Virus record (IMG/VR): IMGVR_UViG_3300023184_000242
Location: 1-42,087 of that record
DNA: 42,087 nt
Origin: a virus
Strand: one strand, 5' to 3'
The notes below the pieces were generated by a model that was not told the DNA's origin, ran no database searches, and saw nothing but the letters and a program-made list of their open reading frames with translations. Below are positions 24,921 through 42,087 of this stretch, piece by piece (positions within the stretch are counted from its first letter, which is position 1; every line of letters starts with the position of its first letter). A program made the position numbers and the translations under genes.

Positions 24921-25886
24921 ATGATTTCACTAGTACAACTTTTACAGGAAATATGTATCTTTGAAGGAGGAAATGTTTTTGGTACTACATCATCTATTAA
25001 AAAAGAAAACATACAACCAACCTTAAAAAAATTTATAATAGAATTAAAACAAATTTACCCAAAAGTAGATTTTAAATTTAACACATTAGGTTCTGTTGGT
25101 AAAAAAGATGAATCTGGAGATATTGACTTAGGTATGAGTGTTGACCAATTTATAACTAAAGATGGTACACCACTACTAGATAATTGGAACATTGATAAAG
25201 CAGAATTTGACGCTTTATATGAAAAAATAAGAAAACGTACAAGATCAGCTACTGAAACTCAAAGTAAATTAAGAGCTATGTTAGAATTAGCAGCTATAGA
25301 TATTGAAAAAAATTCACAGTTTATAAACACTGACATTAAAGCAGCAGGTGGTGGTTCAATATTTTGTATGTTTCCTCAATTTGATAAAGAGAATAAAGAA
25401 CTACCTGAAAAATCAGTACAAATAGATATTAATGTAGGCAACTTAGATTGGTTAACTTTCAGTTACTATTCAAATACATATAAAGATAATGTTAAAGGTT
25501 TACATAGAACACAGTTAATGTTAGCTATGTTTCAAGCCTTAAATATGATGTTTAAACATAGTACTGGTGTTACTTCAAAAACGACAGGAGAAACTTTAGC
25601 AACAAATTCTCAAGAAGCAATAAATGTATTAAATAAAGGCTTCAATCTTAGTTTATCTCAAGATATATTAAATGACTATTTTGAATTAATGAATGCTTTA
25701 AAGAAAAATTTACCTAAAGAAAAGTTAAATCAAATACTAGATATATATTTAAAAATATTAGATTCAACAAGAGCAGATATCCCATTTGATATACAAGACT
25801 ATTGGATTGCAAATCAAGAACGTTTAGGATTAAAAGGTAAATTTTTACCAGACAATTCTAACTTAACTAAATATAAAAAAGTATAA
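24921..25886 (+). CDS. Putative packaged nucleotidyltransferase
   Basis: This 321-aa protein begins MISLVQLLQEICIFEGG, a leader of the MIKLL type ending Ile-Phe-Glu|Gly at residues 13-16. The enzyme part carries LGSVGKKDESGDIDLGMS (56-73): the Gly-Ser helix start and the Asp67-x-Asp69 pair of the polymerase-beta-type nucleotidyltransferase fold. A third acidic position is likely in QIDINVG (about residues 173-179). Substrates of this superfamily range from tRNA to proteins and antibiotics, so none can be named. It overlaps the polyprotein gene, which starts with a second nucleotidyltransferase domain, by TAATG. The pair may act together. Confidence 0.75.
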   Translation: MISLVQLLQEICIFEGGNVFGTTSSIKKENIQPTLKKFIIELKQIYPKVDFKFNTLGSVGKKDESGDIDLGMSVDQFITKDGTPLLDNWNIDKAEFDALYEKIRKRTRSATETQSKLRAMLELAAIDIEKNSQFINTDIKAAGGGSIFCMFPQFDKENKELPEKSVQIDINVGNLDWLTFSYYSNTYKDNVKGLHRTQLMLAMFQALNMMFKHSTGVTSKTTGETLATNSQEAINVLNKGFNLSLSQDILNDYFELMNALKKNLPKEKLNQILDIYLKILDSTRADIPFDIQDYWIANQERLGLKGKFLPDNSNLTKYKKV

Positions 25887-28800
25887 TGTCAGGATCAATA
25901 GGAGCAAATAGAATTCCAAGAGCTGCAGTTGAAACTACTCTTAAAGCATACATTGATAAAGTGCTGAAAAAATTCCCTGGATTTAAATCAGCTAAAATAT
26001 CAGGTTCATATAACACTACAGTAAAACCAGATCATGGTGACATTGATTTAGTTATTAATATTGAAGGAGACGAACAAGATAGAAAAAAACTTAAACAAAA
26101 TTTTGCAGCATATATATCATCATTGCCAGATGATATAACTATTCCTTTTACATCTGGTCGACATGTTGGCAAAAAAGCAGCCGGTACAGGAGACATAGTA
26201 ATAGTACAATTTGCTATTGAAGGTTATCCTGACTTAACAGTTCAAATAGACAACATGATTGTTGCTTCTGAACAGGAAAGTGAATATAGAAAAAGTTTTT
26301 TAGATTTACCTGCTGAAAAACAAGGTTTGTTGGTTGGTTTAGCTAAAGCTCAATTGTTAGAAGAAGATCCAATAGAAATATTTAAACGTTTAGGAATTAC
26401 TAACATTCCTAAATTAGACAAAAATCAAGAACTTGAATTCAATTTATCAAATAAAGGCTTAACATTACGTTTAGTTACATTAGGAGATAATTTTAAAGAA
26501 TTAGGACGAAACGAAATATGGACTTCATTTAATTGGAGTGATGTAGAAAAATTATTTAAAGATTATAAACTAGATGGAACCTGGGAAGAATTATTAGAAT
26601 CTATTAATTCTAAATTAAAAAATTCCCGTTCACGAAATCGTGTAAAAGGAATATTTAACTCATTAGTAGTAATAAATGCTGGTGAAGCAGGAACTGATAA
26701 AGGTAATAACAAATTAAAAGCAAAAAAGACAGTTGATAATCTCTTAGAAAATATGTTGTTTAAAGGTTTAGTTAAAGAACTAATTATGCCACTATTAGAA
26801 GATGAATTTCAAGAAACAATAGCTATATATCCAGGTAAGTTTAAACCTCCACATAAAGGACATTTTGAAGTAGCTAAACAATTAATTGGTAAAGTAGATA
26901 AAATAATTATAGCAATATCTGCTAAAGAACATGATGGCATAACTGCTCAACAAAGTGAAGCAGTATGGAAATTGTACAATACACTATTAGATGGAAAACT
27001 TGACATAGAAATAATTAAAGGTGCTCCTGTAGGATATGTACTTGATACTATTAAAGAAAATCCAAATAATCACTATGTAGCAGTATATGGTAAAGGAGAG
27101 GAAGGTAGATATAAAGCTATAGGTAAAGATCCTCGCTATATGAACGCTGAAATATTTGATGGAGGAACAGCAGAAGATGAAGAAGGTAAAATAGATGCTT
27201 CAAATTTAAGAATAGCATTAAATAAAAATAAAAATATATCTAAATTTTTACCTAAAGGTATTACTCCTGAAGAATACAAACAAGCATTAGGACTTTCATT
27301 AAATGAATTAGAAGATTATGAAATTAAATATTGGGCTTTACACGCTGATCTTTACAAAGCTTTAAAAGATAATCCAGATAAAGAATATGAAATTTTAAAA
27401 AATGAATTAAAAGGAGAGAGACTTAAAGCCTTAAATTATTTTTATTATAGTTATCTTGCTAAAGATGCACCTAAGAAGATTAATGAAGATAAAGAACAAA
27501 AACTTCGAATATTTGACTTTGACGATACATTAGCTCATGTTAATGCTACAATATATATAACTCATAAAGATGGAACAGAGGAAGAACTTACACCAGCAGA
27601 ATATGCTGTATATGAACCACAACCTGGTGACACATCAAACTTTAGAGAATTTAATGCTGTTATTAAAAATGCATCACCTATAGAAAAAAACATAAATTTA
27701 CTCAAACAAGCTGCTTCTGATTCAAACACTAGAGTTACAATATTAACAGCTCGTGGATTAGGCTATCCAGTTAGCAAATATTTAAAAGATAAATTTAATT
27801 TAGACATTTATGTAGTAGCATTAGGCAGTAGTGATCCACAAAAGAAAGCAGAATACATAGAAGATCAAATTGAAAAAGGATATTCAGACATTGAATTTAT
27901 TGATGACTCAACAAAAAATGTAAATGCTGTCAATCAATTAAAATTAAAATATCCAGACATAAGATTAAACGCAGAAATAGCTGAAAATATACTCCTTGAA
28001 AATACATCATTTCAACTACCTGATTTCAAAACACATTTAACATCTTTAACTAAATATATGGTTGATCAAGGTATGAACATTAAACCATATCCTACGTTAA
28101 AAATCATAAATAACGATTTTAAAAACGCTGAAAACATGTTAGGTAAAACAGCATATTATGATCCAACTAATTGTTCAATCACTTTATACACATTAAATAG
28201 ACATCCAAAAGACATATTGCGTTCATATGCTCATGAAATGATTCACCGCATGCAAGATAATGAAGGTAGATTGAAAAATATTACTACTACTAACACCAAT
28301 GAAGATGGAGATTTAGAAGAATTAGAAAAAGAAGCATATTTAAAAGGTAACATGTGTTTTAGAAATTGGGAAGACACTATCAAAACTCCATTAAATGAAT
28401 GGGTTGCAAATATTTTAAAATATAATTACACTCCAAAGCTTTCAAATAAAATTTTTTCTCAACTTCATGAATTAAAAGTAAATGAAATAGCTCTTAATTC
28501 AAACAATGCTGTTGAAATATATGGAAATTTAACCAATGGAGATTTTACTGTAGGAGAACATGATTATAATTACAGAATAATAAAATTAGATAAAAATCCA
28601 TACAACAGTAACTTATTTTACAACATTGATTTTCATGAAATAGGAAATAAAAATCCTAATCCTTCTTCACCAACAGGAAATGCTAAGGAAAACTACATAA
28701 AAATACTATCAACTATGTATAAAATTATATTAGATTTTACTAAAGAAGAAAAACCAGAATATATAGGAATATCAAGTTTAGACGAAAGTGGATATGGAAA

Positions 28801-28927
28801 TATTTACAATAACTTAACTAAAACAAATAAAATTCCAGACTACTCCAGAAAAGATGCAGGTTTACAATTTAAAGATAAAGATGGAAAAACTGGAAAGTTT
28901 ATAATATTAAAAAGAAATAAAATATAA
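25886..28927 (+). CDS. Multidomain packaged polyprotein: nucleotidyltransferase, NMN/cytidylyltransferase-like, HAD, HExxH peptidase
   Basis: The 1013-aa protein has domains in this order. (1) About 15-135: nucleotidyltransferase, SGSYNTTVKPDHGDIDLVIN, with Asp52/Asp54. (2) About 312-455: nucleotidylyl transferase with YPGKFKPPHKGH (315-326, the HxGH site). (3) About 538-690: HAD hydrolase with DFDDT (544-548), TILTARG (618-624) and FIDDS (671-675). (4) About 710-850: HEMIH (783-787), a zinc peptidase HExxH motif. (5) About 865-1013: unassigned, GNAT-like at best. Between (1) and (2) lies ENMLFKGLVKELIMPLLEDE (288-307), a leader-like helix ending Leu-Leu-Glu|Asp. Before (3) comes Ile-Asn-Glu|Asp (532-535), and before (4) AEIAENILLENTSF (696-709, Leu-Leu-Glu|Asn). 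The linkers look like prohead protease sites, so it may be cut into separate enzymes. No leader is seen at its own N-terminus. Confidence 0.75.
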   Translation: MSGSIGANRIPRAAVETTLKAYIDKVLKKFPGFKSAKISGSYNTTVKPDHGDIDLVINIEGDEQDRKKLKQNFAAYISSLPDDITIPFTSGRHVGKKAAGTGDIVIVQFAIEGYPDLTVQIDNMIVASEQESEYRKSFLDLPAEKQGLLVGLAKAQLLEEDPIEIFKRLGITNIPKLDKNQELEFNLSNKGLTLRLVTLGDNFKELGRNEIWTSFNWSDVEKLFKDYKLDGTWEELLESINSKLKNSRSRNRVKGIFNSLVVINAGEAGTDKGNNKLKAKKTVDNLLENMLFKGLVKELIMPLLEDEFQETIAIYPGKFKPPHKGHFEVAKQLIGKVDKIIIAISAKEHDGITAQQSEAVWKLYNTLLDGKLDIEIIKGAPVGYVLDTIKENPNNHYVAVYGKGEEGRYKAIGKDPRYMNAEIFDGGTAEDEEGKIDASNLRIALNKNKNISKFLPKGITPEEYKQALGLSLNELEDYEIKYWALHADLYKALKDNPDKEYEILKNELKGERLKALNYFYYSYLAKDAPKKINEDKEQKLRIFDFDDTLAHVNATIYITHKDGTEEELTPAEYAVYEPQPGDTSNFREFNAVIKNASPIEKNINLLKQAASDSNTRVTILTARGLGYPVSKYLKDKFNLDIYVVALGSSDPQKKAEYIEDQIEKGYSDIEFIDDSTKNVNAVNQLKLKYPDIRLNAEIAENILLENTSFQLPDFKTHLTSLTKYMVDQGMNIKPYPTLKIINNDFKNAENMLGKTAYYDPTNCSITLYTLNRHPKDILRSYAHEMIHRMQDNEGRLKNITTTNTNEDGDLEELEKEAYLKGNMCFRNWEDTIKTPLNEWVANILKYNYTPKLSNKIFSQLHELKVNEIALNSNNAVEIYGNLTNGDFTVGEHDYNYRIIKLDKNPYNSNLFYNIDFHEIGNKNPNPSSPTGNAKENYIKILSTMYKIILDFTKEEKPEYIGISSLDESGYGNIYNNLTKTNKIPDYSRKDAGLQFKDKDGKTGKFIILKRNKI

Positions 28928-28939
28928 ACATTTAAAATT

Positions 28940-29638
28940 ATGAAATATAAATATAAATTAGTAGAAAACACAGGTGGAGAAGATACTCCTATTGGTGGTG
29001 GAAGTAAAGGTATTCCAAAATCTTCTGTAGATATAGTATTAACACCTTCTTCTGACACAACTGTAAAAGACATAGAAGATGCACTTTCCAACCCAGAAAA
29101 CTATGAAGGAAAATTTATCACTGACAAAAATCTAAAACAGGCTGTAGATGATTTCTATGGCCCATCAGGTGGATTTGGTGTAAAAAAAGGAGCAGCAAAA
29201 AAAGCATGGAATGCATCTGATAAATCATGGAAAGAACTAAAAATTAAAGACATAAAAAAGCGCAATCCTACAATGGATTTTACTGAAATGAATTTTAAAG
29301 TTAATTTTGAATCACTTCCTGAAAAAATTCAAGATCCTAAAGTATTTTATCCTCCATTTCGAACTAAAGATGGAATAACAGCCATCCAATCAGACATTAA
29401 AAATTTAAAAGTTAAAGAATTACGTTGGGAAGAAAAAGAAAATACACTTATATTTAGTCATTCAAGTAATCCGTCAGTGGAAAAAACTAAAAAAATGATT
29501 AAAGATGTTATAAACACAGCCAATGAAAAAGGAGAAAAACAACTTGATTATTCTTTAGAAGAAATAACTGCAACTGATGAAAACAAAATACGTGAAGTAA
29601 TTAAAGAACAATTAAAAAAATTAATAAACAAAAAATAA
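28940..29638 (+). CDS. Putative packaged protein with short leader
   Basis: A 232-aa protein starting MKYKYKLVENTGGEDTPIGG. Leu-Val-Glu|Asn at residues 7-10 is a possible prohead protease site, as in MKFKLLED at 12224. The body (about 25-180) contains VDDFYGPSGGFGVKKGAAKK and is otherwise unassigned. The C-terminus DENKIREVIKEQLKKLINKK again resembles a leader helix, but at the wrong end. The start is preceded by TTTAAAATT. It ends 3 nt before the next gene. Function is unknown. Confidence 0.65.
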   Translation: MKYKYKLVENTGGEDTPIGGGSKGIPKSSVDIVLTPSSDTTVKDIEDALSNPENYEGKFITDKNLKQAVDDFYGPSGGFGVKKGAAKKAWNASDKSWKELKIKDIKKRNPTMDFTEMNFKVNFESLPEKIQDPKVFYPPFRTKDGITAIQSDIKNLKVKELRWEEKENTLIFSHSSNPSVEKTKKMIKDVINTANEKGEKQLDYSLEEITATDENKIREVIKEQLKKLINKK

Positions 29639-29641
29639 GTT

Positions 29642-30217
29642 ATGTCAGATCACACTTTAAAAAAACCATTTGAACAAAAAGACATTCAACGTCTTCGCAA
29701 TCTGGTTCAAGGTAAACATGGAGATAAAACAACCATAGGAATTGGTTATGAAAAACAGCAACAATTTCATAGTGAAGGTGACATATGGGAAGTAGATGGA
29801 AGACAATGGACTATCAAAAATGGCATCAAACAAAATATTACTAAGTTAGACAAAGCAAAAAAATCAGTAGTTTTGCCATTATTTTGTCCATGTTGTGCTA
29901 GTTTAATGAAAAATAGATATGATAAACTGTTTTACATTCAACACAACAGATGTTTTAATTGTCAAATTGATTTTGAAGCAAATCTTCGCAAATCAGGTTT
30001 GTGGGAAGAACACAACAAAAATATTATCAATTCAGACATAGATCATACCATTAAAGACTACACTAAATGGATGGATGAGATTATAAATAATGACACAAAT
30101 GATTCATTTATTACAGAAGCTGGCGACATTGAAAGCTGGGTTGGATCTTCTAAAAAAAAGTTATTAGAAAATAAAGAAGAAACAATAAAATATTTGCAAA
30201 ACTTAAAAAAACATTAA
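29642..30217 (+). CDS. Conserved phage zinc-ribbon protein
   Basis: A 191-aa protein with EGDIWEVDGRQWTIKNGIKQ (40-59) and NITKLDKAKKSVVLPLF, then a zinc ribbon: two Cys in CPCC (about 83-86) and a second pair in CFNCQIDFE (about 104-112). The first block is strongly conserved, in my memory, among aquatic T4-like phages, without known function. The C-terminal third is helical and acidic. It precedes the TATTTATAA motif of the next unit by 18 nt and probably ends the unit that began at 24921. A nucleic-acid or virion-assembly role would fit the zinc ribbon, but this is a guess. Confidence 0.7.
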   Translation: MSDHTLKKPFEQKDIQRLRNLVQGKHGDKTTIGIGYEKQQQFHSEGDIWEVDGRQWTIKNGIKQNITKLDKAKKSVVLPLFCPCCASLMKNRYDKLFYIQHNRCFNCQIDFEANLRKSGLWEEHNKNIINSDIDHTIKDYTKWMDEIINNDTNDSFITEAGDIESWVGSSKKKLLENKEETIKYLQNLKKH

Positions 30218-30235
30218 ACTTAACATAATTTCTAA

Positions 30236-30244
30236 TATTTATAA
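30236..30244 (+). promoter_or_regulatory. Candidate late promoter motif TATTTATAA
   Basis: The 9-mer lies 14 nt upstream of the ATG at 30259. Confidence 0.55.
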
Positions 30245-30258
30245 TAAAAATTACAACA

Positions 30259-30858
30259 ATGAATAAACAATTCGAAAACATGCAAAAATTGGCTTTTGGT
30301 AAAACACTTATCAATGAATCCACCAGAAAAATGACTAAATCTGCATTCACAACTCAAATTAAAGAAATGATTTTGAATGAAATGAATGAAGCTAAAAAGA
30401 AAAAAGATGAAAAAGCAGATGTAGCTCCTCAAGAAGATGTAGACATCAATGTTGACAGTGAAACTCCACCAGTGGAAATGCCTACAGATACAATGGCGCC
30501 AGAAGTTGGCAACACAGCTGACATTAATCCAACAGTAAAATCAATTCAAGATTCATTGCAAAAAGCATTTGCTCAAGCTAAAGAATTAGGTGACGCTAAA
30601 TTGACAACTCAAATTGGAAACACAATTACAATGCTTGTGAGAGATCAAGTATTAGGTGGTGGACAACAAGCAGTTGCTGAAGGTATGGAAGAAATGAACG
30701 ACGAAATATTTAAAAAAATAAGTGCAGCAGTTTCAGATGAAGATTATAATCGTTTCATAGATGCAGCTACTGCAATATCTGAGGATTTAATAAGTAAAGG
30801 CTTTGAAGCAGAAGATATTTATGACTATTTAAATAATATAACATTAAATGAAGCATAA
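30259..30858 (+). CDS. Conserved acidic phage protein, probably internal/virion
   Basis: A 199-aa protein: basic N-terminal helix MNKQFENMQKLAFGKTLINE (residues 1-20, ending Ile-Asn-Glu|Ser) and a second helix TQIKEMILNEMNEAKKKKDE. Next comes an acidic, Pro-rich linker (55-90), then a four-helix-like C-terminal domain (93-199). Both N-terminal helices fit the leader pattern. It heads the block that also carries the histone-like gene 30902. A head-internal or scaffold-like role is plausible. Confidence 0.65.
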   Translation: MNKQFENMQKLAFGKTLINESTRKMTKSAFTTQIKEMILNEMNEAKKKKDEKADVAPQEDVDINVDSETPPVEMPTDTMAPEVGNTADINPTVKSIQDSLQKAFAQAKELGDAKLTTQIGNTITMLVRDQVLGGGQQAVAEGMEEMNDEIFKKISAAVSDEDYNRFIDAATAISEDLISKGFEAEDIYDYLNNITLNEA

Positions 30859-30901
30859 TAAACAATAAACAATTAAACAATAAACCAAAAACCAAAACAA
30901 A

Positions 30902-31072
30902 ATGACACAAGAACTATTTGAACAAATTAGTGGGTTGTATGAAACAGCAAAACTAAACCATGAAGAAACAAGTAAAGCAGCAAAAGGTAGAGCTCGTAAA
31001 GCACTATCAGAAATGAAAAAAATCATTGCTGCTTACAATAAAGCATCAGTTGCTGAGGCAAAAGCAAAATAA
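30902..31072 (+). CDS. Histone H1-like (Hc1-type) small DNA-binding protein
   Basis: A 56-aa gene: MTQELFEQISGLYETAKLNH, then EETSKAAKGRARKALSEMKK and IIAAYNKASVAEAKAK. The central 'KGRARKAL.E..K....Y.KAS..EAK' pattern matches Hc1-type histone H1-like proteins of chlamydiae and phages (N-terminal helix pair). It lacks the long Lys/Ala-rich tail of chlamydial Hc1. Such a protein could condense phage DNA in the head or act on host DNA. It is directly followed by a strong hairpin at 31077-31100, so its transcript probably ends there or is protected. Confidence 0.75.
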   Translation: MTQELFEQISGLYETAKLNHEETSKAAKGRARKALSEMKKIIAAYNKASVAEAKAK

Positions 31073-31076
31073 ACAT

Positions 31077-31109
31077 AATGGGGAGAGAAATCTCCCCATT
31101 TATTAAATT
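31077..31109 (+). terminator. Terminator-like hairpin with GAAA tetraloop
   Basis: AATGGGGAGA (31077-31086) and TCTCCCCATT (31091-31100) form a perfect 10-bp stem closed by a GAAA (GNRA) loop, followed by TATTAAATT. It sits 4 nt after the stop of the histone-like gene and before the start of the next gene. The tail is not a clean T-run, so a 3'-end stabiliser of an abundant mRNA is an alternative. Confidence 0.75.
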
Positions 31110-31116
31110 TCACAAA

Positions 31117-31629: not shown

Positions 31630-31631
31630 TA

Positions 31632-32153: not shown

Positions 32154-32159
32154 TAAAAT

Positions 32160-32912
32160 ATGGCAAACGAACTAAAAACATATGGTGATTTAAAAAAATT
32201 AATACAAGGTATTAGTAGACAACAAAAAGGTGAAAAAATCCTATCTAAAGGAAAAGAAGTTGCTTTAGATACTCTTTTAGGCTTCATTCCATTTGCATCA
32301 GCAGCAAAAACCACATTTGATTTTATGCGTGCTGCTATATCTAAACCAGATGGTAAAAAAACAGATACATGGTTAGATAAATTAGACATTGATGATGATA
32401 TGTCTAAAATAGTTGATGACACTGTAGAAAATGGATTTATGCAAATGATGGCTAAAACTATAGAAGGAGAATCTGATACTAAACCTTTAGAACAAGATTT
32501 TAACATGAATGCTAAAATGGTGGACTATTTAAAAACACATTATGGTGGCAGAACAGTAGCAGGAATAAAAGAAAATAAAATAAAAAATAAAATGAAAGAA
32601 TCACAATTACGCCAAATCATTAAAGAAGAAATTTCTAAAATAATAGAAGCAGAAGTAGCTCCTGCAGCCCCAGCTATAACTACAGCAAAACCAGCAGTAA
32701 AACAAACAGCCGCTTCAACTGCATATCAAAAAACAGCACAAAAAGCAACAACTGTAACTTCAAAAGCTGCTCAAATTAAAAGTATAAATGATTTACCAGG
32801 TGTATTTGAAGTTTGGTTTAGTTCATTAGGACTTAAAGGACAAGCAGGTGTTAGTCAAACAGCTATTTTATCTAAAATAAGAGATACCCTAACAAAAATG
32901 GAAATAAAATAA
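32160..32912 (+). CDS. Fusion protein with an internal capsid-targeting-like leader
   Basis: The 250-aa protein has two parts. Residues 1-139 are a conserved helical phage domain (LDTLLGFIPFASAAKTTFDF, TDTWLDKLDIDDDMSKIVDD). At Met145 a complete second leader begins: MKESQLRQIIKEEISKIIE|A (Ile-Ile-Glu-Ala, 161-164), followed by an Ala/Pro/Lys-rich linker and a small C-terminal domain (about 210-250). The junction codons GAA AAT AAA ATA AAA AAT AAA ATG read like an A-rich intergenic leader that lost its stop codon. Either two genes fused or translation also starts at 32592, giving a separate 106-aa packaged protein. Confidence 0.7.
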   Translation: MANELKTYGDLKKLIQGISRQQKGEKILSKGKEVALDTLLGFIPFASAAKTTFDFMRAAISKPDGKKTDTWLDKLDIDDDMSKIVDDTVENGFMQMMAKTIEGESDTKPLEQDFNMNAKMVDYLKTHYGGRTVAGIKENKIKNKMKESQLRQIIKEEISKIIEAEVAPAAPAITTAKPAVKQTAASTAYQKTAQKATTVTSKAAQIKSINDLPGVFEVWFSSLGLKGQAGVSQTAILSKIRDTLTKMEIK

Positions 32913-33964
32913 TGGACATACTAGACATATTTTTAAATAAATACTCATATAAATTTCCAAAAGGATATCCTGACATGAACAATGAGCAGGATGTTTTATT
33001 AATGGAAAGTTTATTGAGTGAATTAGAAATAAATAAGGAAGAAACTCCTGATTATGATGGAGAAATATTAAATTTATTAACAACTTTATCTGATGAAGAA
33101 GCTAAAAAGAAAGTTATTAGTTATTTAAATAAAATAAATAAAAAAGAAGATAAAGATGATGACAAGTTAGAAGCAGAACTAGAAAAACAATTAAAATCAA
33201 AAAATATTAATGAAGAAATTACAGAATATATTACATTATTAGCTTCAAAATATAATATAATTCAACCATTAAAAGACTACTTAGAATCTAATAAATTATT
33301 ATCATTAAATGATTTAGATAAAGATGGAAATTTATATAACATAATAAAATCAAACACAGATTTTCCTGAAGCATTTATTAAAAAAATAATAAACTATACC
33401 CCTAGTGAAGGAAATAAAGCTTTAGGTATTGGTGAAATAGCATTGGTGTTATTCACTAACGGTGAAAAACAAGCAGTAGGAGATATTGGATTTGGAAATA
33501 CAACAGTTGAATTAAAAGGATCTGGAGCTAGATTTCCAGGAAATGGAAGAGGTAGATCCGGGGATATTAGCTCAATATATCAAGATTTTGCTAAAAAATA
33601 TCCTAATATAAAATTTAAAACTAAAGAATCTTCTCTTAGTGTTTATATAAGTAAGATTCTTAATCAAGATCCAAATAGTTTAGATTTTATCAATAAAGAA
33701 TTAAATAATTTATATCCAAATTCTGAAAATATAAAAATAGAATCTGGAGATGATATTGGAATTATTAAAAATATAATCTATAAAAAATATATAAGTAGTT
33801 ATGTAAATTCATATAAAAATAATTATTATATGCTTATATCAAAAAATACATCAGACTATAATTTATATACACCTGATGAACTTATAGATGCTGTGGGTAA
33901 AGGAAACATACCTTTTACAAGTAATGTTACAAAATCAACTTCATACCCTCAGCTAGCTATCTAA
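32912..33964 (+). CDS. Possible PD-(D/E)XK-like nuclease with 'KFPKGYPD' N-terminus
   Basis: This 350-aa protein begins MDILDIFLNKYSYKFPKGYP, followed by DMNNEQDVLLMESLLSELE (ending Leu-Ser-Glu|Leu). I recall such a 'YKFPKGYPD...D..LL..LL' opening from other phage proteins, which suggests a reusable N-terminal module. The core (about 168-213) reads NKALGIGEIALVLF, GDIGFGNTTVELKGSGARFP: Glu in GIGE, Asp in GDIGF and Glu-x-Lys in VELKG have the spacing of a PD-(D/E)XK active site. The C-terminal part is Asn/Tyr/Ile-rich and unassigned. A TAATG overlap couples it to 32160. Confidence 0.6.
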   Translation: MDILDIFLNKYSYKFPKGYPDMNNEQDVLLMESLLSELEINKEETPDYDGEILNLLTTLSDEEAKKKVISYLNKINKKEDKDDDKLEAELEKQLKSKNINEEITEYITLLASKYNIIQPLKDYLESNKLLSLNDLDKDGNLYNIIKSNTDFPEAFIKKIINYTPSEGNKALGIGEIALVLFTNGEKQAVGDIGFGNTTVELKGSGARFPGNGRGRSGDISSIYQDFAKKYPNIKFKTKESSLSVYISKILNQDPNSLDFINKELNNLYPNSENIKIESGDDIGIIKNIIYKKYISSYVNSYKNNYYMLISKNTSDYNLYTPDELIDAVGKGNIPFTSNVTKSTSYPQLAI

Positions 33965-33973
33965 TATTTATAA
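33965..33973 (+). promoter_or_regulatory. Candidate late promoter motif TATTTATAA, near-leaderless
   Basis: The 9-mer begins directly after the stop of 32912-33964 and ends 2 nt before the ATG at 33976. Confidence 0.5.
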
Positions 33974-33975
33974 CC

Positions 33976-34713
33976 ATGAATCGTATAACAAAACTTATAA
34001 GAGAAATACTTGCAACACCTCCAAAAAAAGACTCATGCAACTGCGGTTGTCACTCTTGCAAGAATGTTGGCAATAAAGGACCGGTAATCAATGAGAATCT
34101 AAACGCTCGCGTAGTAATGTCAGAGGATATGAAATATCATATTACTAACAAATTATCGCTTATTGAAAGCCACCTCCCATATGGAACAGAAGCCTTTTTA
34201 AATTTATGGGCTGAAGCGCGTTATTTATACTCACGTGAAGCAATTCATGTTAATGAGGCAGACAAAAAAATACTAGTTGAAAGTAATTTAGGCGAATATG
34301 GAATGTACAAAGGTAAAAAAGTACCCTTGGATTTAACAGAACAAAAACATATATTCACCTTAAATAAGGGTAAAATTAAAAAAACATTAAATGAAAATTC
34401 TGCTGAAAAACTTTACAAAGTTGAAGGATTGTTGGTGACTAACAATGATCTTTTATTTCAAAAAGAATTAATTTCAGACATTAGATCAATAACAGGTGTC
34501 ACAACAGTAGACACTCGTGAATATATACCTCGCTTACCTAAAGCAAATTATTCATACAATAAATTAACAGTAAAAATTGATCCTTATCCATATTTAAAAA
34601 ACGGTAAATTTGACATAGAAACTATAAAACAAATTATAGTAAATATTAACAACATAAGAGGAGTAGTTAAATTTAAAGTTGAAAATCCACAAATGATAAA
34701 CATAGGAGTATAA
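33976..34713 (+). CDS. Modular packaged protein with Cys-rich start (probable polyprotein)
   Basis: The 245-aa protein starts with a helix MNRITKLIREILA and a Cys/His cluster CNCGCHSC (21-28), likely metal-binding. Three LxE/IxE sites then separate blocks: Ile-Asn-Glu|Asn (38-41), Leu-Val-Glu|Ser (100-103) and Leu-Asn-Glu|Asn (138-141). The blocks are a helical unit (41-102, with MKYHITNKLSLIESHLPYGT), a short unit SNLGEYGMYKGKKVPLDL (103-120) and an alpha/beta unit (141-245, KLYKVEGLLVTNNDLLFQKE). The 'LGEYGMYKGKKVPLD' unit is familiar to me as an independent module of phage proteins. Cutting at the sites would release four pieces. Confidence 0.7.
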   Translation: MNRITKLIREILATPPKKDSCNCGCHSCKNVGNKGPVINENLNARVVMSEDMKYHITNKLSLIESHLPYGTEAFLNLWAEARYLYSREAIHVNEADKKILVESNLGEYGMYKGKKVPLDLTEQKHIFTLNKGKIKKTLNENSAEKLYKVEGLLVTNNDLLFQKELISDIRSITGVTTVDTREYIPRLPKANYSYNKLTVKIDPYPYLKNGKFDIETIKQIIVNINNIRGVVKFKVENPQMINIGV

Positions 34714-34715
34714 TT

Positions 34716-35375: not shown

Positions 35376-35380
35376 AATAT

Positions 35381-35983
35381 ATGAACCCAGTAATAATAGC
35401 ATCTGTTATAGCAGGCATTTTAGGACCAGTATTAACATTATTTATTAAAAATTATTTTGACAATAAGCAAAATAAACCAGACATAGTAGCTGAAGCTTTA
35501 GAAACAAGCACTAAAATAATGGTAAAATTAGATGCAATTAAAGAAGAATTTAAAGCAGATAGAATTTGGATAACACAATTTCATAATGGAGGCAACTTTT
35601 ATCCAACAGGAAAATCCATGGCAAAGTTTAGTGTGATTTATGAAACAGTAAACATAGGTGTTGGTTCTATTCAAAATATGTTTCAAAACATACAAGTAAA
35701 TTTGTTTAGTAAGAGTATTAATGAATTACTAGAAAACGACAGCATACAAATAGCAGATTATAAAGATGAAACAATAGCAACTTTTGGATTGAAATACATA
35801 GCAGATGATACAGGATGTAAATCTGGTTACTTATTTACAATTAAAACTATTGACAATAAATTTATTGGTATTTTAGGATTAGACTACACAAAAAAGAAAG
35901 CAAAGCTTACAGAAGAAAACATAAATGAATTGTTAAACTATGCCACAGCAATTGGTGGAGTATTATCTGGACATAAAGAATAA
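35381..35983 (+). CDS. Membrane-anchored GAF-like protein (lysis cassette)
   Basis: The 200-aa protein has one N-terminal membrane helix (about 3-24, PVIIASVIAGILGPVLTLFI), a short coil, then a GAF-like sensor domain (about 52-195) with ADRIWITQFHNGGNFYPTGK, SVIYETVNIGVG and GYLFTIKTIDNKFIGILGLD. This combination recurs in phages and plasmids beside lysis or envelope genes. Whether it acts as a holin or as a sensor that times lysis is unknown; a holin usually has little beyond its membrane segments, so the large soluble domain favours regulation. It lies 5 nt after the amidase. Confidence 0.7.
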   Translation: MNPVIIASVIAGILGPVLTLFIKNYFDNKQNKPDIVAEALETSTKIMVKLDAIKEEFKADRIWITQFHNGGNFYPTGKSMAKFSVIYETVNIGVGSIQNMFQNIQVNLFSKSINELLENDSIQIADYKDETIATFGLKYIADDTGCKSGYLFTIKTIDNKFIGILGLDYTKKKAKLTEENINELLNYATAIGGVLSGHKE

Positions 35984-35988
35984 AAGTA

Positions 35989-38514
35989 ATGATAATAGAA
36001 AAAAACATACATAAATTTATAACACACATTGTAAACAATTTGTTTCCTCTTAACGAATATCAAGAGGGAGAAATAAAACTTTTAATAAATAAATTTAAGC
36101 AAGAAGCTGAAGATTTAAACATTGACATTAATGACACTCAACTTAGAAAATACATTGAACGTTTTGACCAATTAAAAGATTCTTCTAAAATAGAAGATAA
36201 AAACTTACGCAACTATCCTTTAAGTAAACTAATAAAATTAGTTACATCATCAAAAGGTGCAGATGTTGAAGATGAAGAAACAGGTCCAGATGTAGTATAC
36301 AGTGAAAATGGCATTACAGTTTACAGTGGAGCAAATGAAGAATTATGTCAAAGACATAGATCTGAGGTTCCATGGTGTATTACTAAAAGTGCTTTTGGAA
36401 ATTACAGATACAGTAAAGACAGAGGATTTCCATCATTTTACCTAATAAAAAATGACACAGATGAATATAGGGATAATGAAAAATTAAGTTTTGTAGCAAT
36501 TCAAGTTAGAGATGGTTCATTTCCAACAAATAAAAAATACATTTGGACTCCTAAAGATAATCGACCAAATGAATCTGAACCAATGGGTTGGAGTAAATTA
36601 ACATCAGATATTCCATGGTTAACTCAAATTCCAAACATTGAAAATATACTTAAATACATTCCTTTATCTTCTACTGAAAAAGCTACTCAATTATATGGTA
36701 AAGATGAAATAACAATACGTGAATGGTCTAATCTTCCTTTTGAAATAAAAAAACAATATTTAGTAATTAGAAAAGAACTTACAATACTATTTAAAGATAT
36801 TACTATAGATGAGTTTGTGTCAAAATATTTACCAAAATACCCTCAAATAGCTACATTTATAGCTACAAATGCTGGTGTAATTGCTCCTAAAATATTAGTT
36901 AAAAATTTAGATAAATTTTCCAATAATGATAGAAAATCTATTATTGAAAACTTAAGAGAATCATTTAAAACTGATGAATTAAGTAAAGATTTTCTTCCAT
37001 TTGACGTAAAATTACTATTAACAAAATTAAAAAAATGGAATCTTGGCTCAGATGAAAGAATATACATTACTAAAAATAATGAAGCTATAGTCAAACTAAG
37101 ATTTACATCAGGTGATGTTCAAATGGGAATATTTACAGCAGAAGATGAATATCCAAATGTCAAATTAAACACTCGTACCTCAAAGTACTTACTTGACTAT
37201 CCAGAAATAGATGAAATTCCATTCAATACTCTTATTAAACTAACAAATGATGAAGCAATTGATAAAAGTTTTATTGAAAAAGTAATAGTAAAAGCCGAAG
37301 AAGATCCAAACTCAGCTATAGTAATTAAAGATGTAGAAGATGGTAAAATATTATTAGATTCCAACACATTTACTTCTTATAAGATTAAAGATGGTAAAAT
37401 AAGTTCTATACCATTCAACGATGAAGAAGTACAAAACGTATTAAGTACAGAAACTAACAATACTGGTTTTCAAGAATCAGCTGTTAATTTAGTATTTCAA
37501 CAAAAAGATCTTTCACCTTCAATAGATAAAAATGCTTTTCTTAACATATTAAAAAATACTCCATACGATAAAAGAACAAAAGATGGTTCAGTAATATTAA
37601 TTGATGATAATCCAGAATCTACTAATCCAATATTTGCTATGCCAACTGAAATTCCATTTCGTATTAAAACTGGTTTTAGTTATGGAAGGGGGGATACTTG
37701 GAACCAATATTTTTCTAGAAACCAAGATTTAGATACGGACACAATTAAACCATATTTTAATTATTTAAGAAGTAAAAATGTAGGATTTAATGATGAAACA
37801 TTAATAAGATGGTTAGACAGCAGTTACACTGGTCTTTCTAAAAAAATAATATCATTAAATCCCCCTATGGAACCAAATAGTATATACTATCCAGCAGTAA
37901 TTGGAGATAAATATGTACTTATCAACAAAAGCAATCCAGCAGCAAGTAAAGCAATAGGTAAAAATAATACATTTGTTAGAGCAAATATACCTCTAAGTGT
38001 AGCAAGAGAAATAACAGGTGTAGGAGCAGAACAAACTCCTAGAGCGCCTAGAACACCAAGACCTACAACTCCTCAAGCAGCAGTGGCGCCTAATACTACA
38101 GTAAACAATGTACTTGATTTTAATGGATTAACAGCAGGATTTAATAGTTTACCAACAAGTATAAAATCTAGAATAGGAGGAGGAGACATTGTTCCTTACA
38201 ATAGACGTAATGCATCAGTAGACGCAATAGGTAGAGTTCGAACATTTATACAAAATGGACAAAGCAAATTTTACATAATCAGACTTAATAGTGGAACAAT
38301 GATTGGTTTTGCCACCATGCAACCTGACGCTAGACATTATATAGTAACTGCTACTACTTCCTATCAAGTGCCAAGAGTAGGCCAACTAGCATCAGTGTTA
38401 CAACAGCGAAATATATCTGAAGGAACAAAAACAGCATTAAAAATGCACGCTGCTGCTTATCCTGAAGAAGCAAATGAAATAAAGAAAATTTTACAAAAAT
38501 TAAAAATAAAATGA
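35989..38514 (+). CDS. Large conserved phage protein with WCI-type domain
   Basis: An 841-aa protein. The start MIIEKNIHKFITHIVNNLFP, then LNE|Y, is compatible with the leader pattern. Residues about 95-190 hold the block VVYSENGITVYSGANEELCQ, then EVPWCITKSAFGNYRYSK and SFYLIKND. This 'y.e.g..vy...n.......g....WCI......y..y......fyli.d' signature occurs in many large phage proteins and has no known activity. The rest is a long alpha/beta series, a Pro/Arg/Ala-rich linker (TPRAPRTPRPTTPQAAVAPN, about 683-702) and a C-terminal domain (705-841). The linker suggests two separable parts. Probably packaged cargo or a large virion protein. Confidence 0.6.
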   Translation: MIIEKNIHKFITHIVNNLFPLNEYQEGEIKLLINKFKQEAEDLNIDINDTQLRKYIERFDQLKDSSKIEDKNLRNYPLSKLIKLVTSSKGADVEDEETGPDVVYSENGITVYSGANEELCQRHRSEVPWCITKSAFGNYRYSKDRGFPSFYLIKNDTDEYRDNEKLSFVAIQVRDGSFPTNKKYIWTPKDNRPNESEPMGWSKLTSDIPWLTQIPNIENILKYIPLSSTEKATQLYGKDEITIREWSNLPFEIKKQYLVIRKELTILFKDITIDEFVSKYLPKYPQIATFIATNAGVIAPKILVKNLDKFSNNDRKSIIENLRESFKTDELSKDFLPFDVKLLLTKLKKWNLGSDERIYITKNNEAIVKLRFTSGDVQMGIFTAEDEYPNVKLNTRTSKYLLDYPEIDEIPFNTLIKLTNDEAIDKSFIEKVIVKAEEDPNSAIVIKDVEDGKILLDSNTFTSYKIKDGKISSIPFNDEEVQNVLSTETNNTGFQESAVNLVFQQKDLSPSIDKNAFLNILKNTPYDKRTKDGSVILIDDNPESTNPIFAMPTEIPFRIKTGFSYGRGDTWNQYFSRNQDLDTDTIKPYFNYLRSKNVGFNDETLIRWLDSSYTGLSKKIISLNPPMEPNSIYYPAVIGDKYVLINKSNPAASKAIGKNNTFVRANIPLSVAREITGVGAEQTPRAPRTPRPTTPQAAVAPNTTVNNVLDFNGLTAGFNSLPTSIKSRIGGGDIVPYNRRNASVDAIGRVRTFIQNGQSKFYIIRLNSGTMIGFATMQPDARHYIVTATTSYQVPRVGQLASVLQQRNISEGTKTALKMHAAAYPEEANEIKKILQKLKIK

Positions 38515-38759
38515 AACTAGACGAATTAAAAAAAATTATCAAGGAGGAATTAAAGTCAATTTTAGAAGCAAACACTCCTGAAAAAAAACCAGGTACAAAA
38601 GAAGCACCTCCAAAAGAAAAACCAGGCACAACTCCAAAACGTAGAGGATTTGATAAACCTGAACCAGGTGTAAATCCAAAACCAAAAGCATCTTTAAAAG
38701 AAACTGAAAAAAATCTAGTAAATAAAATTACAGCTCGTTTTTTAAAATCTAAAAAATAA
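38511..38759 (+). CDS. Small basic packaged protein with capsid-targeting-like leader
   Basis: The 82-aa product is a leader plus a basic, Pro/Lys-rich body: MKLDELKKIIKEELKSILEA (Ile-Leu-Glu|Ala at residues 17-20), then repeats of 'KKPGTKEAPP', 'EKPGTTPKRRG' and 'KPEPGVNPKPK', and a final helix with KITARFLKSKK. The mature part would be a positively charged peptide, like the small basic internal proteins of T4 heads. It probably binds the packaged DNA. It overlaps 35989 by 4 nt (ATGA) and 38759 by TAATG. Confidence 0.75.
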   Translation: MKLDELKKIIKEELKSILEANTPEKKPGTKEAPPKEKPGTTPKRRGFDKPEPGVNPKPKASLKETEKNLVNKITARFLKSKK

Positions 38760-39763
38760 TGGGAAAGTTACTAGAAATTGAATATGAAAAAATATTCAGA
38801 CCTGAAACAATGGCTAGTCTAAAAGGCAAGTCAGGTGAGTCTCTTAAACAAATGTTAGGCAACAAATCATTGATGCAAACAATAATGCGTTCATCAGAAT
38901 TAATACCTGAAATTATTGAAGCAGAAAAAAATCACATCACTACACTAGAAGGAATAGCTGTTGACATGGTTACCCAAGCATATCCTATCATTGACTATGC
39001 TAACATCAGAATTGATGCTAAAATAGTTACAATGGGAGACATTGCAATTCCACCACCATCAGAAGAAGAAGAATCACTTCCTAATCCTGAATTTTTAGAG
39101 GCAAAAAGACGTATTATCAATGGTATTACTCAAGGTGCATCAATTAGAGGAGCATTTGCTTTTTATTTGTTTAAAGAGTACTTAGACCTTTTAGACGACA
39201 CTTTAGTAGACAAGTATGGTGAAATTTTAAAACTTTCATTTGGCATTTATGACAGTGAAGAGGCAATTGCTATGTTATTGGCAATGATAGCACAAAATAA
39301 AAATATGCCAGGTGGTGAAAGTCAAATGGAATATGATGAAGAAGCTCAACAATTTGTTATTAAAGCTAGAGCCATTTGTTTTCCAATGTTAGTTCATGAA
39401 ATTGTAAAAGGATTGTATGAAATTGTTGGCACACAAGGATTTGGGAAAGACAAAGAACAAAATAAAGCAGTCATAGGAGCAGTAGACAAATTGTCTAATG
39501 AACCTCGTGATTTCCAGTACGGTAAATTCATATATGATTCTTTAAACAACTTATATGGTGAAAGCAACATTAATGATGCTCGTGTTAGAGAATTGTTTTT
39601 TACTGAAGTGTATAAATTAGACGAAGAAGAATTTGTTAATTTTATTGAAAATTTAATTAACAACAAATTAACCACTATCCAAAAACAATGGGCTATGGGT
39701 GAAATGAAAGCAATTGAAAAAGATCTTAAAAAAGATGACACTGGTTTAGAAAATTTAGACTAA
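38759..39763 (+). CDS. Conserved phage protein of unknown function
   Basis: The 334-aa protein (MGKLLEIEYEKIFRPETMAS) is acidic and mostly helical. It has RRIINGITQGASIRGAFAFY (about 116-135) and ICFPMLVHEIVKGLYEIVGT (about 209-228), which I recall as conserved between aquatic T4-like phages, with no assigned activity. There is no leader of the clear MIKLL or LRQII type. It is coupled to 38511 by TAATG. After its stop come 31 nt of A-rich spacer before the GTG start of 39795. Virion or assembly roles are equally possible. Confidence 0.65.
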   Translation: MGKLLEIEYEKIFRPETMASLKGKSGESLKQMLGNKSLMQTIMRSSELIPEIIEAEKNHITTLEGIAVDMVTQAYPIIDYANIRIDAKIVTMGDIAIPPPSEEEESLPNPEFLEAKRRIINGITQGASIRGAFAFYLFKEYLDLLDDTLVDKYGEILKLSFGIYDSEEAIAMLLAMIAQNKNMPGGESQMEYDEEAQQFVIKARAICFPMLVHEIVKGLYEIVGTQGFGKDKEQNKAVIGAVDKLSNEPRDFQYGKFIYDSLNNLYGESNINDARVRELFFTEVYKLDEEEFVNFIENLINNKLTTIQKQWAMGEMKAIEKDLKKDDTGLENLD

Positions 39764-39794
39764 AAGTAAAGATAAAATATTAAGTAAAAATACT

Positions 39795-40331
39795 GTGATT
39801 AAACTATTAAACATATTAAAAGAAACATTATTAGAAAGTGATCCTAAAACAGGTACAGGTAAAAAACCTAAAGGATCAGGTCGTCGCTTATACACAGATG
39901 AAAATCCAAATGATACTGTGTCTATTAAGTTTAAAACTAAAGAAGATATAGTTGACACATTAAATAAAGATTCATTTAAGACTAAATCACACGTTCGTCA
40001 ATCACAAATTATCAATTTAATTCATCAACGTGTTAGAGCATCATACAATAAAGCTAAAGATTCTGAAGTAAAATCTCGTTTAAAACGTGCTTTAGACTAT
40101 ATTGAAAAACGTAAAGAAGCATCTAAAGCAAAAACAGAACGTTTGCGTAAATTAAAAGAAACATCAGATCCACAATCAGGTAAAGCAGCACCATATGGTT
40201 CTGGTTATGCTCCTATTAAAAATACAAATTTAGAAGAAGATACACTTACAGAAAAATGTTGGAAAGGATACACTCAAAAAGGTATGAAAACAATGTTTGG
40301 TAAAAAATATCCAAACTGTGTGAAAAAGTAA
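39795..40331 (+). CDS. Packaged two-module protein with capsid-targeting-like leader (GTG start)
   Basis: The start is GTG at 39795: it gives the full leader (M)IKLLNILKETLLE|S (Leu-Leu-Glu-Ser, 12-15), while no in-frame ATG precedes it. The 178-aa product has a main domain (16-125) with KTGTGKKPKGSGRRLYTDEN and SHVRQSQIINLIHQRVRASY, a conserved phage domain of unknown function, then a linker and, after Leu-Thr-Glu|Lys (about 151-154), a short module KCWKGYTQKGMKTMFGKKYP with NCV. The 'CW.GY...G.K......PNCV' unit is a small module I recall from the ends of many aquatic phage proteins. The second site would separate the two modules. Confidence 0.75.
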   Translation: MIKLLNILKETLLESDPKTGTGKKPKGSGRRLYTDENPNDTVSIKFKTKEDIVDTLNKDSFKTKSHVRQSQIINLIHQRVRASYNKAKDSEVKSRLKRALDYIEKRKEASKAKTERLRKLKETSDPQSGKAAPYGSGYAPIKNTNLEEDTLTEKCWKGYTQKGMKTMFGKKYPNCVKK

Positions 40332-40333
40332 TA

Positions 40334-40342
40334 TATTTATAA
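40334..40342 (+). promoter_or_regulatory. Candidate late promoter motif TATTTATAA
   Basis: The 9-mer lies 21 nt upstream of the ATG at 40364. Confidence 0.55.
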
Positions 40343-40363
40343 TCAAATTAAACATAAAATAAA

Positions 40364-40735
40364 ATGAACACAGAATTTTTAAAACTAGTATCGTACTTGT
40401 TCCACTCATCAACACAAGTTCATGTATTCCATCTTCAAACAAAGTCATACGCTGAACATAAAGCGTTAAATAAGTATTATGACGGAATAGTTGATTTAAC
40501 AGATAGTTTAATTGAGTCTTTTCAAGGCAAATATAATATCTTAACAGGATATGAAAACTATGCTTTAGACGACTATAAAGACAATGCTCAAACTATCGTA
40601 TACTTTAAAGCATTATTAAAAACAGTAGAAACCTTAAGAACATCAGTATCAAGCGATTCATATTTGCAAAATCAAATTGACACTATAATCGAGTTAATTA
40701 CATCTACTTTGTATAAATTAAGATTTTTACATTAA
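40364..40735 (+). CDS. Dps/ferritin-like helical phage protein
   Basis: A 123-aa all-helical protein: LVSYLFHSSTQVHVFHLQTK, then SYAEHKALNKYYDGIVDLTD (residues 7-46). The spacing of His, Glu-His and Asp in the first two helices (H...H..HLQT.S.AEHKAL..YYD) resembles the metal site of Dps/ferritin-like four-helix bundles, and the length is close to a minimal bundle. Conserved phage relatives of unknown function have this same start. It could bind iron or protect DNA, but the metal site is inferred from spacing only. No capsid-targeting leader is visible. Confidence 0.7.
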   Translation: MNTEFLKLVSYLFHSSTQVHVFHLQTKSYAEHKALNKYYDGIVDLTDSLIESFQGKYNILTGYENYALDDYKDNAQTIVYFKALLKTVETLRTSVSSDSYLQNQIDTIIELITSTLYKLRFLH

Positions 40736-40746
40736 TATAAAACACA

Positions 40747-41064
40747 ATGATAAAACTACTCCAACTATTAACTGAAGCTAAAGAAAGCTTTGAACAATTT
40801 GCTAGTACCAGACTAAAAGGTGCTGAAAAAATAGCTGACACTACTCAAGAAGCAGGTGGACTATCTTTATTAACTTACAAACACTATAAAGTTAAATTAC
40901 CATACTATAAAAAAGCAGCAGCAGGTAAATTAGACAAAGAAGCTGCTAAAAAAGAATTTAATGAAACTTTAAAAAGTATTTCATTAAACATGACTCAAAA
41001 TGAATTTCAAACTGAAATGGGACGTTTAGAGGTATTAGGAGAATTATTAATAAGAGAAAAATAA
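40747..41064 (+). CDS. Putative packaged protein with MIKLL-type leader
   Basis: A 105-aa protein that starts MIKLLQLLTEAKESFEQFAS; Leu-Thr-Glu|Ala at residues 8-11 is a textbook-like T4 prohead protease site. The mature part (95 aa) is helical, with ASTRLKGAEKIADTTQEAGG (19-38), then LSLLTYKHYKVKLPYYKKAA, a Lys-rich stretch, and a C-terminal helix. No fold is recognised. The gene overlaps the next one by TAATG and belongs to a run of three genes sharing the same leader. Confidence 0.78.
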   Translation: MIKLLQLLTEAKESFEQFASTRLKGAEKIADTTQEAGGLSLLTYKHYKVKLPYYKKAAAGKLDKEAAKKEFNETLKSISLNMTQNEFQTEMGRLEVLGELLIREK

Positions 41065-41489
41065 TGATAAAACTTATAAACATATTAAGCGAAGCTGAAC
41101 TAAATAAATGTCCTGCTCCAACTCAAAACATTGAACTTAATCTTCAAAATAGACAAAAGGCAATTAATGAGTATGGTTATGGACCTTTAAATCCAAATAA
41201 ACCAAATGATAAATTTTGGCAAGCTAAAGTAGACATGTGGAAGCTTGATTCTGTAGAAGAAGCTAAATCATCTCGTTGTGGTAATTGTGCAGCTTTTGAT
41301 CAAACAACTAAAACATTAGATTGCATTGCCAAAGGTATTGGAAACGATGAAGGATCAGAAAATCCATATGATGTTATTGATGCAGGACAATTAGGATATT
41401 GTAGATTTTTAAAATTTAAATGTGCCGCTGCTCGAACTTGTGACGCTTGGGTTGTTGGTGGTCCTTTAACAGATAATAAAACTGTATGA
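41064..41489 (+). CDS. Putative packaged Cys-rich (metal-binding) protein
   Basis: The 141-aa protein has the leader MIKLINILSE|A (Leu-Ser-Glu-Ala, 8-11). The mature domain contains six closely placed cysteines: SRCGNCAAFD (about 71-80), LDCIAKG, GYCRFLKFKCAAARTCDAWV (about 115-134). The pattern C-x2-C ... C ... C-x5/6-C-x4-C suggests a metal or iron-sulfur site; it resembles high-potential iron-sulfur-type folds by eye, without proof. Such domains recur in aquatic phages. It overlaps the next gene by 4 nt (ATGA). A redox or structural factor carried in the head is a possible role. Confidence 0.75.
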   Translation: MIKLINILSEAELNKCPAPTQNIELNLQNRQKAINEYGYGPLNPNKPNDKFWQAKVDMWKLDSVEEAKSSRCGNCAAFDQTTKTLDCIAKGIGNDEGSENPYDVIDAGQLGYCRFLKFKCAAARTCDAWVVGGPLTDNKTV

Positions 41490-42087
41490 TTAAACTAGTA
41501 GAAATATTACAAGACATTTTGGCTGAAAAGAAGCTATGCCCTAAAGGTAGAGCGTACTATAATCGTCGTAGAGCAGCAGGTGAAAAACCTTCAGCTTATC
41601 TTTCTGGTCGTTCTGTCAAAGTGTGTAAAGGATTAATGGAAGAAGATGATTTAGATTTACATGAATCACTTCGTGATTGGTTTAAAAAAGAAGATTGGGT
41701 TAGAATTGACACACAAGGTAACATTACAGGCCCATGTGGTACAATGAAAAAAGGTAAAAAAACAACTCGTTGTTTACCTCGTGCTAAAGCAAACAGCTTA
41801 ACTAAAGCTGAAAGAGCAGCCACATCACAGAAAAAAGCAGCATCAGACAAACAATTTGTGCCTAACACTAAAAAAGCTAAAGTAAAACTTACAGAATTAA
41901 GACAAATTATTTATAATATAATTAATGAATCATTACATTTAAATGAAGACAATATAGATGAATATGATGTTGAAAGTCCACAAGATGTAAAAGAATTTGT
42001 TCAGTTTATGCGAGAGTATAAACAACCTCTACATGAAGCAGAGTACCATGGTCGTAAAGTACAACTTGGCAAGCCAATGCAAGGTGA
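41486..42087 (+). CDS. Packaged polyprotein, several small modules (partial, open at right edge)
   Basis: The ATG at 41486 overlaps the upstream stop (ATGA). 200 codons are visible and the frame stays open. The leader is MIKLVEILQDILAE|K (12-15). Modules: KKLCPKGRAYYNRRRAAGEK (15-34) ending in KVCKG; after Leu-His-Glu|Ser (58-61) a basic unit SLRDWFKKEDWVRIDTQGNI, with two Cys and KANSLTKAERAAT (61-125), which resembles the phage family I know as DUF6321; then a second internal leader TELRQIIYNIINE|S (136-149); then Leu-His-Glu|Ala (182-185) and AEYHGRKVQLGKPMQG, the opening of another recurrent phage module (DUF5754-like). Family numbers are from memory. Confidence 0.72.
   Translation, partial: MIKLVEILQDILAEKKLCPKGRAYYNRRRAAGEKPSAYLSGRSVKVCKGLMEEDDLDLHESLRDWFKKEDWVRIDTQGNITGPCGTMKKGKKTTRCLPRAKANSLTKAERAATSQKKAASDKQFVPNTKKAKVKLTELRQIIYNIINESLHLNEDNIDEYDVESPQDVKEFVQFMREYKQPLHEAEYHGRKVQLGKPMQG

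Follow-up and report, generated by a model that had tools for sequence, protein, structure and literature searches.

Proteins encoded in the window, that is, the entire 42,087-base viral contig held as IMG/VR record IMGVR_UViG_3300023184_000242, carry short leader peptides of several classes, and the sequences make it very likely that these leaders are removable head-targeting tags, which would be cut by a gp21-type prohead protease while the bodies behind them are packed in the phage head and probably delivered with the DNA. In the window and its relatives we observed leader families with a glutamate (Glu) at a fixed register, in class A the register of T4, as well as swapping of leaders between bodies, a gp21-family protease together with gp23 in relatives, and a match between leader class C and the tail of the scaffold protein. 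An earlier note on this DNA had named 13 leaders, of two types plus two shorter forms, and read them as signals for packing into the head; all 13 were recovered at their coordinates, each with an (L/I)-x-E motif, and the predicted head packing passed each computational test that we applied.

Leaders in the window

The leaders and leader-like stretches of the window are given below, with a slash at the predicted cut.

327..368, minus strand: class A leader MIKLKDILKDILLE/D of gene 368-3, which leaves the contig at its left end; LLE/D, residue 14
1587..1646, plus strand: class B leader MKKSQLRQIIREEISKAINE/N of the 1587-1958 protein; INE/N, residue 20; aligned with relatives
9409..9492, plus strand: class B leader MNADTLKKIIKSAVKEAIQEELKDILLE/A of the 9409-9777 protein; LLE/A, residue 28
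12043..12126, plus strand: class B leader MNKSELRQIIKEEINKAIKE/RFQYNLSE/S of the 12043-12234 protein; IKE/R at 20 or LSE/S at 28
12224..12244, plus strand: short leader-like start MKFKLLE/D; LLE/D, residue 7; weak taken alone
24921..24965, plus strand: class A leader MISLVQLLQEICIFE/G of the 24921-25886 protein; IFE/G, residue 15
28940..28966, plus strand: short leader MKYKYKLVE/N of the 28940-29638 protein; LVE/N, residue 9
30259..30318, plus strand: class C leader MNKQFENMQKLAFGKTLINE/S, reading MNKQFENMQKLAF...INE/S
32592..32648, plus strand: internal class B leader MKESQLRQIIKEEISKIIE/A, in frame within the 32160-32912 protein; IIE/A, residue 19
32912..33022, plus strand: class F leader (MDILDIFLNKYSYKFPKGYPDMNNEQDVLLMESLLSE/L) of the 32912-33964 protein, with YKFPKGYPDMN
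33976..34005, plus strand: leader-like N-terminus MNRITKLIRE/I of the 33976-34713 protein
34363..34395, plus strand: internal junction NKGKIKKTLNE/NSAEKLYK in 33976-34713, matching the leader/body border of stand-alone relatives
38511..38567, plus strand: class B leader MKLDELKKIIKEELKSILE/A of the 38511-38759 protein; ILE/A, residue 19
39795..39836, plus strand: class A leader MIKLLNILKE/TLLE/S of the 39795-40331 protein, GTG start; LKE/T at 10 or LLE/S at 14
40747..40776, plus strand: class A leader MIKLLQLLTE/A of the 40747-41064 protein; LTE/A, residue 10
41064..41093, plus strand: class A leader MIKLINILSE/A of the cysteine-rich 41064-41489 protein; LSE/A, residue 10
41486..41527, plus strand: class A leader MIKLVEILQDILAE/K of the 41486 protein, which leaves the contig at its right end; LAE/K, residue 14
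41897..41929, plus strand: internal class B-like stretch LRQIIYNIINE/S inside the 41486 protein; 14.1 bits

One of the 13, at 32592, does not open a protein of its own and is in frame within the 32160-32912 open reading frame; the list was also incomplete, as it lacked the leaders at 30259 and 32912, the internal copy in 41486 and the junction in 33976. The most conserved leader family is that of 9409, with 60 relatives, and its gene stands immediately ahead of a gp25-like gene. Among viral homologs of the 41064 family, the short N-terminal extension keeps [LI]-x-E in 44 of 50 distinct cases, while in the 28940 protein, which has a class B-like helix at its C-terminus as well, YKLVE is retained in two relatives. 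Residues 8-10 of the 41486 leader are LQD, with no L-x-E there, and leader residues 1-17 of the 24921 protein are disordered in the structure model.

Recurrence beyond chance and register of the glutamate

Position-specific scoring matrices (PSSMs) were trained on the window leaders only (six of class A and five of class B) and scored at a threshold of 14 bits on 12 related contigs with 1,387 proteins. Class A gave 38 N-terminal matches, against 0.05 expected from shuffles and none in 6,306 internal pieces, and class B gave 44, against 0.45 expected and two in internal pieces. The class B count takes in a few terminase large subunits, whose start LRQIIREEY scores as class B yet belongs to a conserved family of terminases; these were left out as leaders, and without them the count is 40 in 1,400 genes. 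No match at 14 bits was found among the 335 genes of the control genomes (T4, crAss001, N4, P-SSM2 and RM378). With an eight-residue class A matrix, one of these control genes (T4 gp24) was picked up vs 69 of 1,449 genes of this phage group; at low threshold the class A profile also picks up signal peptides and membrane starts. A BLAST search with the 21-residue class B consensus returned one weak match in phages and none in plasmids, which is no useful control because the consensus is too short and of low complexity.

The (L/I)-x-E motif by itself was discarded as evidence, since 15% of 13-residue windows drawn at random from these proteins contain it as well; the weight is carried by its fixed register. 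For this, the matrices were limited to residues 1-8 (class A) and 1-12 (class B), so that the Glu column was untrained, and they gathered 54 class A and 39 class B families with unrelated bodies. Glu stands at position 10 in 33 of the 54 and at position 15 in 23 of the 39 (with one protein per family, p = 4e-25 and 2e-17, respectively); the families are partly non-independent and the p values are therefore guides. By column, class A has L/I at 8 in 93% (a trained column) and Glu at 10 in 64% (untrained), and class B has L/I at 13 in 65% and Glu at 15 in 55% (both untrained), compared with a background Glu frequency of 6.8%; past the leader Glu, conservation drops to background. The profile check proposed in the earlier note, done here as a PSSM, gave in this way a large signal on proteins outside the training set, in which Glu keeps its place. 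Our literature searches found no paper describing these leaders.

Six leader classes and a match to the scaffold tail

An unbiased search for patterns restricted to the first 30 residues of 732 families recovered classes A and B and, in addition, C (MKKQILSEEFKRMQKLAGIITE, with the core RMQKLAGI), D (MENFNLKKFLVENKLTTNSRLLxE), E (FNIHNWQAKFLKE) and F (YKFPKGYPDMN, N-terminal in 10 of 10 cases). Instead of the two types first described there are at least six classes, one of which equals the tail of the scaffold. Across 3,086 proteins (693,457 residues), 16 copies of the class C motif lie within the first 30 residues and 56 within the last 25, with a single copy in any other place; 51 of the 56 proteins with the C-terminal motif have scaffold-like N-termini, and the motif ends 32 of 33 scaffolds, these being identified by their position before gp23. 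Leader C, ILSEEFKRMQKLAGII, resembles the scaffold tail IISEVSEQVxRWQKLAGIIK along the entire stretch. Class C copies the scaffold C-terminal tail, and therefore at least this class probably docks at the scaffold-tail site, the likeness suggesting one docking site for both. The prohead protease itself has (L/I/V)-x-E within residues 5-30 in 51 of 52 cases.

In a separate observation, proteins in L123, L129, L142, L148, L149, L157, L159 and L187 begin with a class D leader and end in a class D-like tail (EGFDLRKFLAENRK). We rejected these tails as scaffold tails, as they are mostly on class D-leader proteins and not on scaffolds.

Swapping of leaders and internal leaders

One body resembling an ADP-ribosyltransferase (ART) occurs beneath tags of class A (L018, MIKLTDLLNEINE/SKQIGNLYHFT), class B (L386, MKYPQLRQIIKEEISKILNE/SRQVGNLYHFT, body 63% identical) and class F (G019, ...EILGE/AKQVGILYHFT), and the terminal Glu is invariant. 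Its ART identity was confirmed neither by folding (mean pLDDT 36) nor by sequence (DarT E 0.076). The 41064 body is likewise found under class A and class D tags, bodies that are 76% identical stand under D and E tags, and the C-terminal body of 33976 occurs under A, under B, or fused with a retained KIKKTLNE/N junction. Because the same body occurs under different tags, classes A to F appear to serve the same end.

In the 32160 protein, the internal leader follows a conserved first domain, and it stands at the same place in two relatives whose C-terminal parts differ, an arrangement that looks as if a polyprotein were to be cleaved within the head. In L368, L371 and L376, 41064-type domains are fused behind long proteins bearing (P/G)VAE motifs, which are possibly the multiple protease sites of a polyprotein.

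Source phage and head genes of its relatives

The baseplate gp6-like protein of the window has 45-46% identity over its full length to those of Flavobacterium phage immuto (160 kb) and Microcystis phage Mel-JY01 (190 kb), and the source phage is a member of the T4-like group related to immuto. Both cultured relatives encode Peptidase_S77, the T4 gp21 family, by Pfam (for immuto, PF03420 at 8.9e-35); immuto also has a gp23 major capsid protein by Pfam, and the capsid gene of Mel-JY01 is annotated as T4-like. S77 and gp23 occur together in 13 of 21 longer relatives, and the remaining ones may be fragments. A genome with no prohead protease gene, which the earlier note would have taken as a refutation, is not what these relatives show. 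The search for S77 within the window contig found none, which is uninformative since the contig is partial. The genes of immuto run from primase and exonuclease through a 24921 homolog and a NadR-like protein to terminase, gp20, protease, scaffold and gp23, and the window therefore seems to end ahead of the head cluster; its head genes would be missing because the contig ends. In relatives, leaders of classes B, D and E are found on genes within the gp20-gp21-scaffold-gp23 cluster, and the density of leader genes in contigs of the group is about 4-20 per 100 genes.

Comparison with known systems

The closest known system is the T4 capsid-targeting sequence (CTS) of IPI-III, Alt and gp24, which is processed by gp21. 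In IPIII, residues 4 and 7 control targeting and residues 8 and 10 control processing (PMC9026906), and gp24 is a gp21 substrate (annotation; PMC5694885). Class A shares the 10-residue T4 register, with L/I at 8 and Glu at 10, as in IPII/IPIII (MKTYQEFIAE), Alt (MELITELFDE) and gp24 (MAKINELLRE/S), and both T4 and this group have short N-terminal leaders on unrelated, diverse cargo alongside an S77 protease, gp20 and gp23. The leader residues here are however unlike MKTYQEFIAE, the nearest T4 match being gp24, whose leader scores 9.1 bits with the class A profile whereas IPII and IPIII score -5.4; tagged proteins are only a handful in T4 but about 4-20 per 100 genes here; and at least six swappable classes, a class equal to the scaffold tail and internal leaders in fused proteins are features of this group, unlike T4. 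Since the window leaders are unlike those of the internal proteins, and since packaging and cleavage are deduced from sequence, we regard the leaders as a probable larger, modular variant of the T4 capsid-targeting system and not as a plain member.

In the giant phages SPN3US and phiKZ, many head proteins, among them ejected ones, also lose an N-terminal propeptide to a prohead protease that cuts at x-x-E, although these propeptides are mostly longer than 100 residues and belong with another protease family and motif (PMC5694885), whereas the leaders here are about 7-40 residues and go with S77. There is a further likeness to the multi-domain polyvalent proteins of phages and conjugative elements, proposed to be delivered with DNA (PMC5512222), for which the window fusions 25886, 32160 and 33976 are comparable; that study groups them by domain content, and the passages of it that were searched describe no short cleavable tag, unlike delivery here, which would use a short tag on many small proteins.

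Proposed mechanism and alternatives

During prohead assembly, the cargo tag would dock on the prohead core or inner shell and thereby trap unrelated proteins inside; the gp21-type protease would then cleave after the Glu of (L/I)-x-E, so that the bodies come free within the head; from there they would probably enter the host along with the DNA. Docking, cleavage, packaging, injection and effector function are all steps that we infer. A more specific form of the mechanism, in which class C and perhaps others mimic the scaffold tail and take its docking site, so that any tagged protein is carried in by a plug-in address code, is an appreciable possibility, though we hold it somewhat less likely than its opposite; under such a code, the different tag classes may address different prohead sites or layers.

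Several alternatives were weighed against head targeting. The leaders could recruit prohead assembly factors that are degraded or left behind, with no injection, as T4 gp22, gp67 and gp68 are gp21 substrates cleaved into fragments (PMC5694885), and some leader proteins are short and of low complexity (38511). We consider this unlikely, given that the cargo set differs from phage to phage and that the complete enzyme folds found in relatives (superoxide dismutase and zeta toxin) are implausible as scaffold. The leaders might also be docking peptides for another part of the virion, such as the baseplate or tail tube, with an incidental Glu motif; 9409 and 12043 are indeed among baseplate genes, and it is the highly conserved 9409 family that precedes the gp25-like gene. 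Class C equals the scaffold tail, however, class B, D and E leaders lie in the head cluster of relatives, the class A profile matches T4 gp24, and Glu keeps its register across unrelated families, all of which make a docking role of this kind rather improbable. Least credible of all, to the point that we give it hardly any weight, is that the leaders are membrane-associating amphipathic helices or reflect a sequence bias where genes begin, for instance a translation signal. Leaders of classes A and B are short and rich in Ile/Leu, with a helical amphipathic nature judged by eye, but leader codons differ synonymously while the residues are retained, classes C to F do not have the form of a simple amphipathic repeat, copies of the motifs are also found at C-termini (class C) and internal junctions, and the Glu is fixed.

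Head targeting followed by cleavage is the reading we prefer, and some observations weigh against it. The residue after E10 is Ile in 11 of the 33 class A families, vs a small or charged residue in the T4 examples, and the true cut may therefore often be at a later site. With the class A profile T4 IPI-III have negative scores, so that the T4 match is one of register and of gp24 and not of the internal protein sequences. A 38511 homolog in L012 is without the Glu (KKAVSANAP), and the 24921 homolog in immuto is without a leader. Head genes are absent from the window itself, and the place of 9409 among baseplate genes means that some leader proteins may belong to the tail. Finally, cleavage, packaging and injection are predictions from sequence comparison, and the Baltic Flavobacterium phage paper (PMC7077304) holds no virion proteomics for these phages.

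Bodies behind the leaders

Among relatives, only a few bodies show a recognisable enzyme fold. An Fe/Mn superoxide dismutase (L260:2228-2881, minus strand, contig G021) follows the class A leader MINLIQLLTE/AK, and its match aligned from residue 13, with the canonical start directly after the leader; this enzyme may protect the DNA or the host at entry. Two zeta-toxin-like kinases above the Pfam cut-off (L247:16509-17306 and L260:13666-14418, both minus strand) sit immediately after class A leaders, and an NT5C-like phosphatase is also among the leader-bearing bodies. In the window, the assignment of the 24921 body as a pol-beta-like nucleotidyltransferase comes from a weak structural match (best E 2.4e-5, TM about 0.35), and most other bodies have no recognised domain. 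PADLOC gave weak matches on the cargo, and to call the leader proteins effectors is reasonable but unproven.

Two other proteins were seen in passing. In Mel-JY01, the gene L005:22429-23592 between gp21 and the scaffold has the leader MYEYVEYILE/K and a C-terminal part that by eye looks like an ADP-ribosyltransferase and recalls T4 Alt, with no match in a Pfam search. The large window fusion 25886-28927, with no clear leader, has nucleotidyltransferase-like and cytidylyltransferase-like parts, together with HAD-like and metalloprotease-like parts by eye only.

Implications

The leaders provide a sequence rule for predicting virion-borne proteins in a widespread group of T4-like phages of aquatic habitats, where most genes have no known function, and many genes now called hypothetical could become candidate head cargo. 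The match between cargo tag and scaffold tail makes the binding partner of capsid-targeting sequences directly testable, and swappable tags have a potential use for loading proteins into phage heads. If the address code is true, at least ten proteins would be delivered per infection, including superoxide dismutase and zeta-toxin-like kinases.

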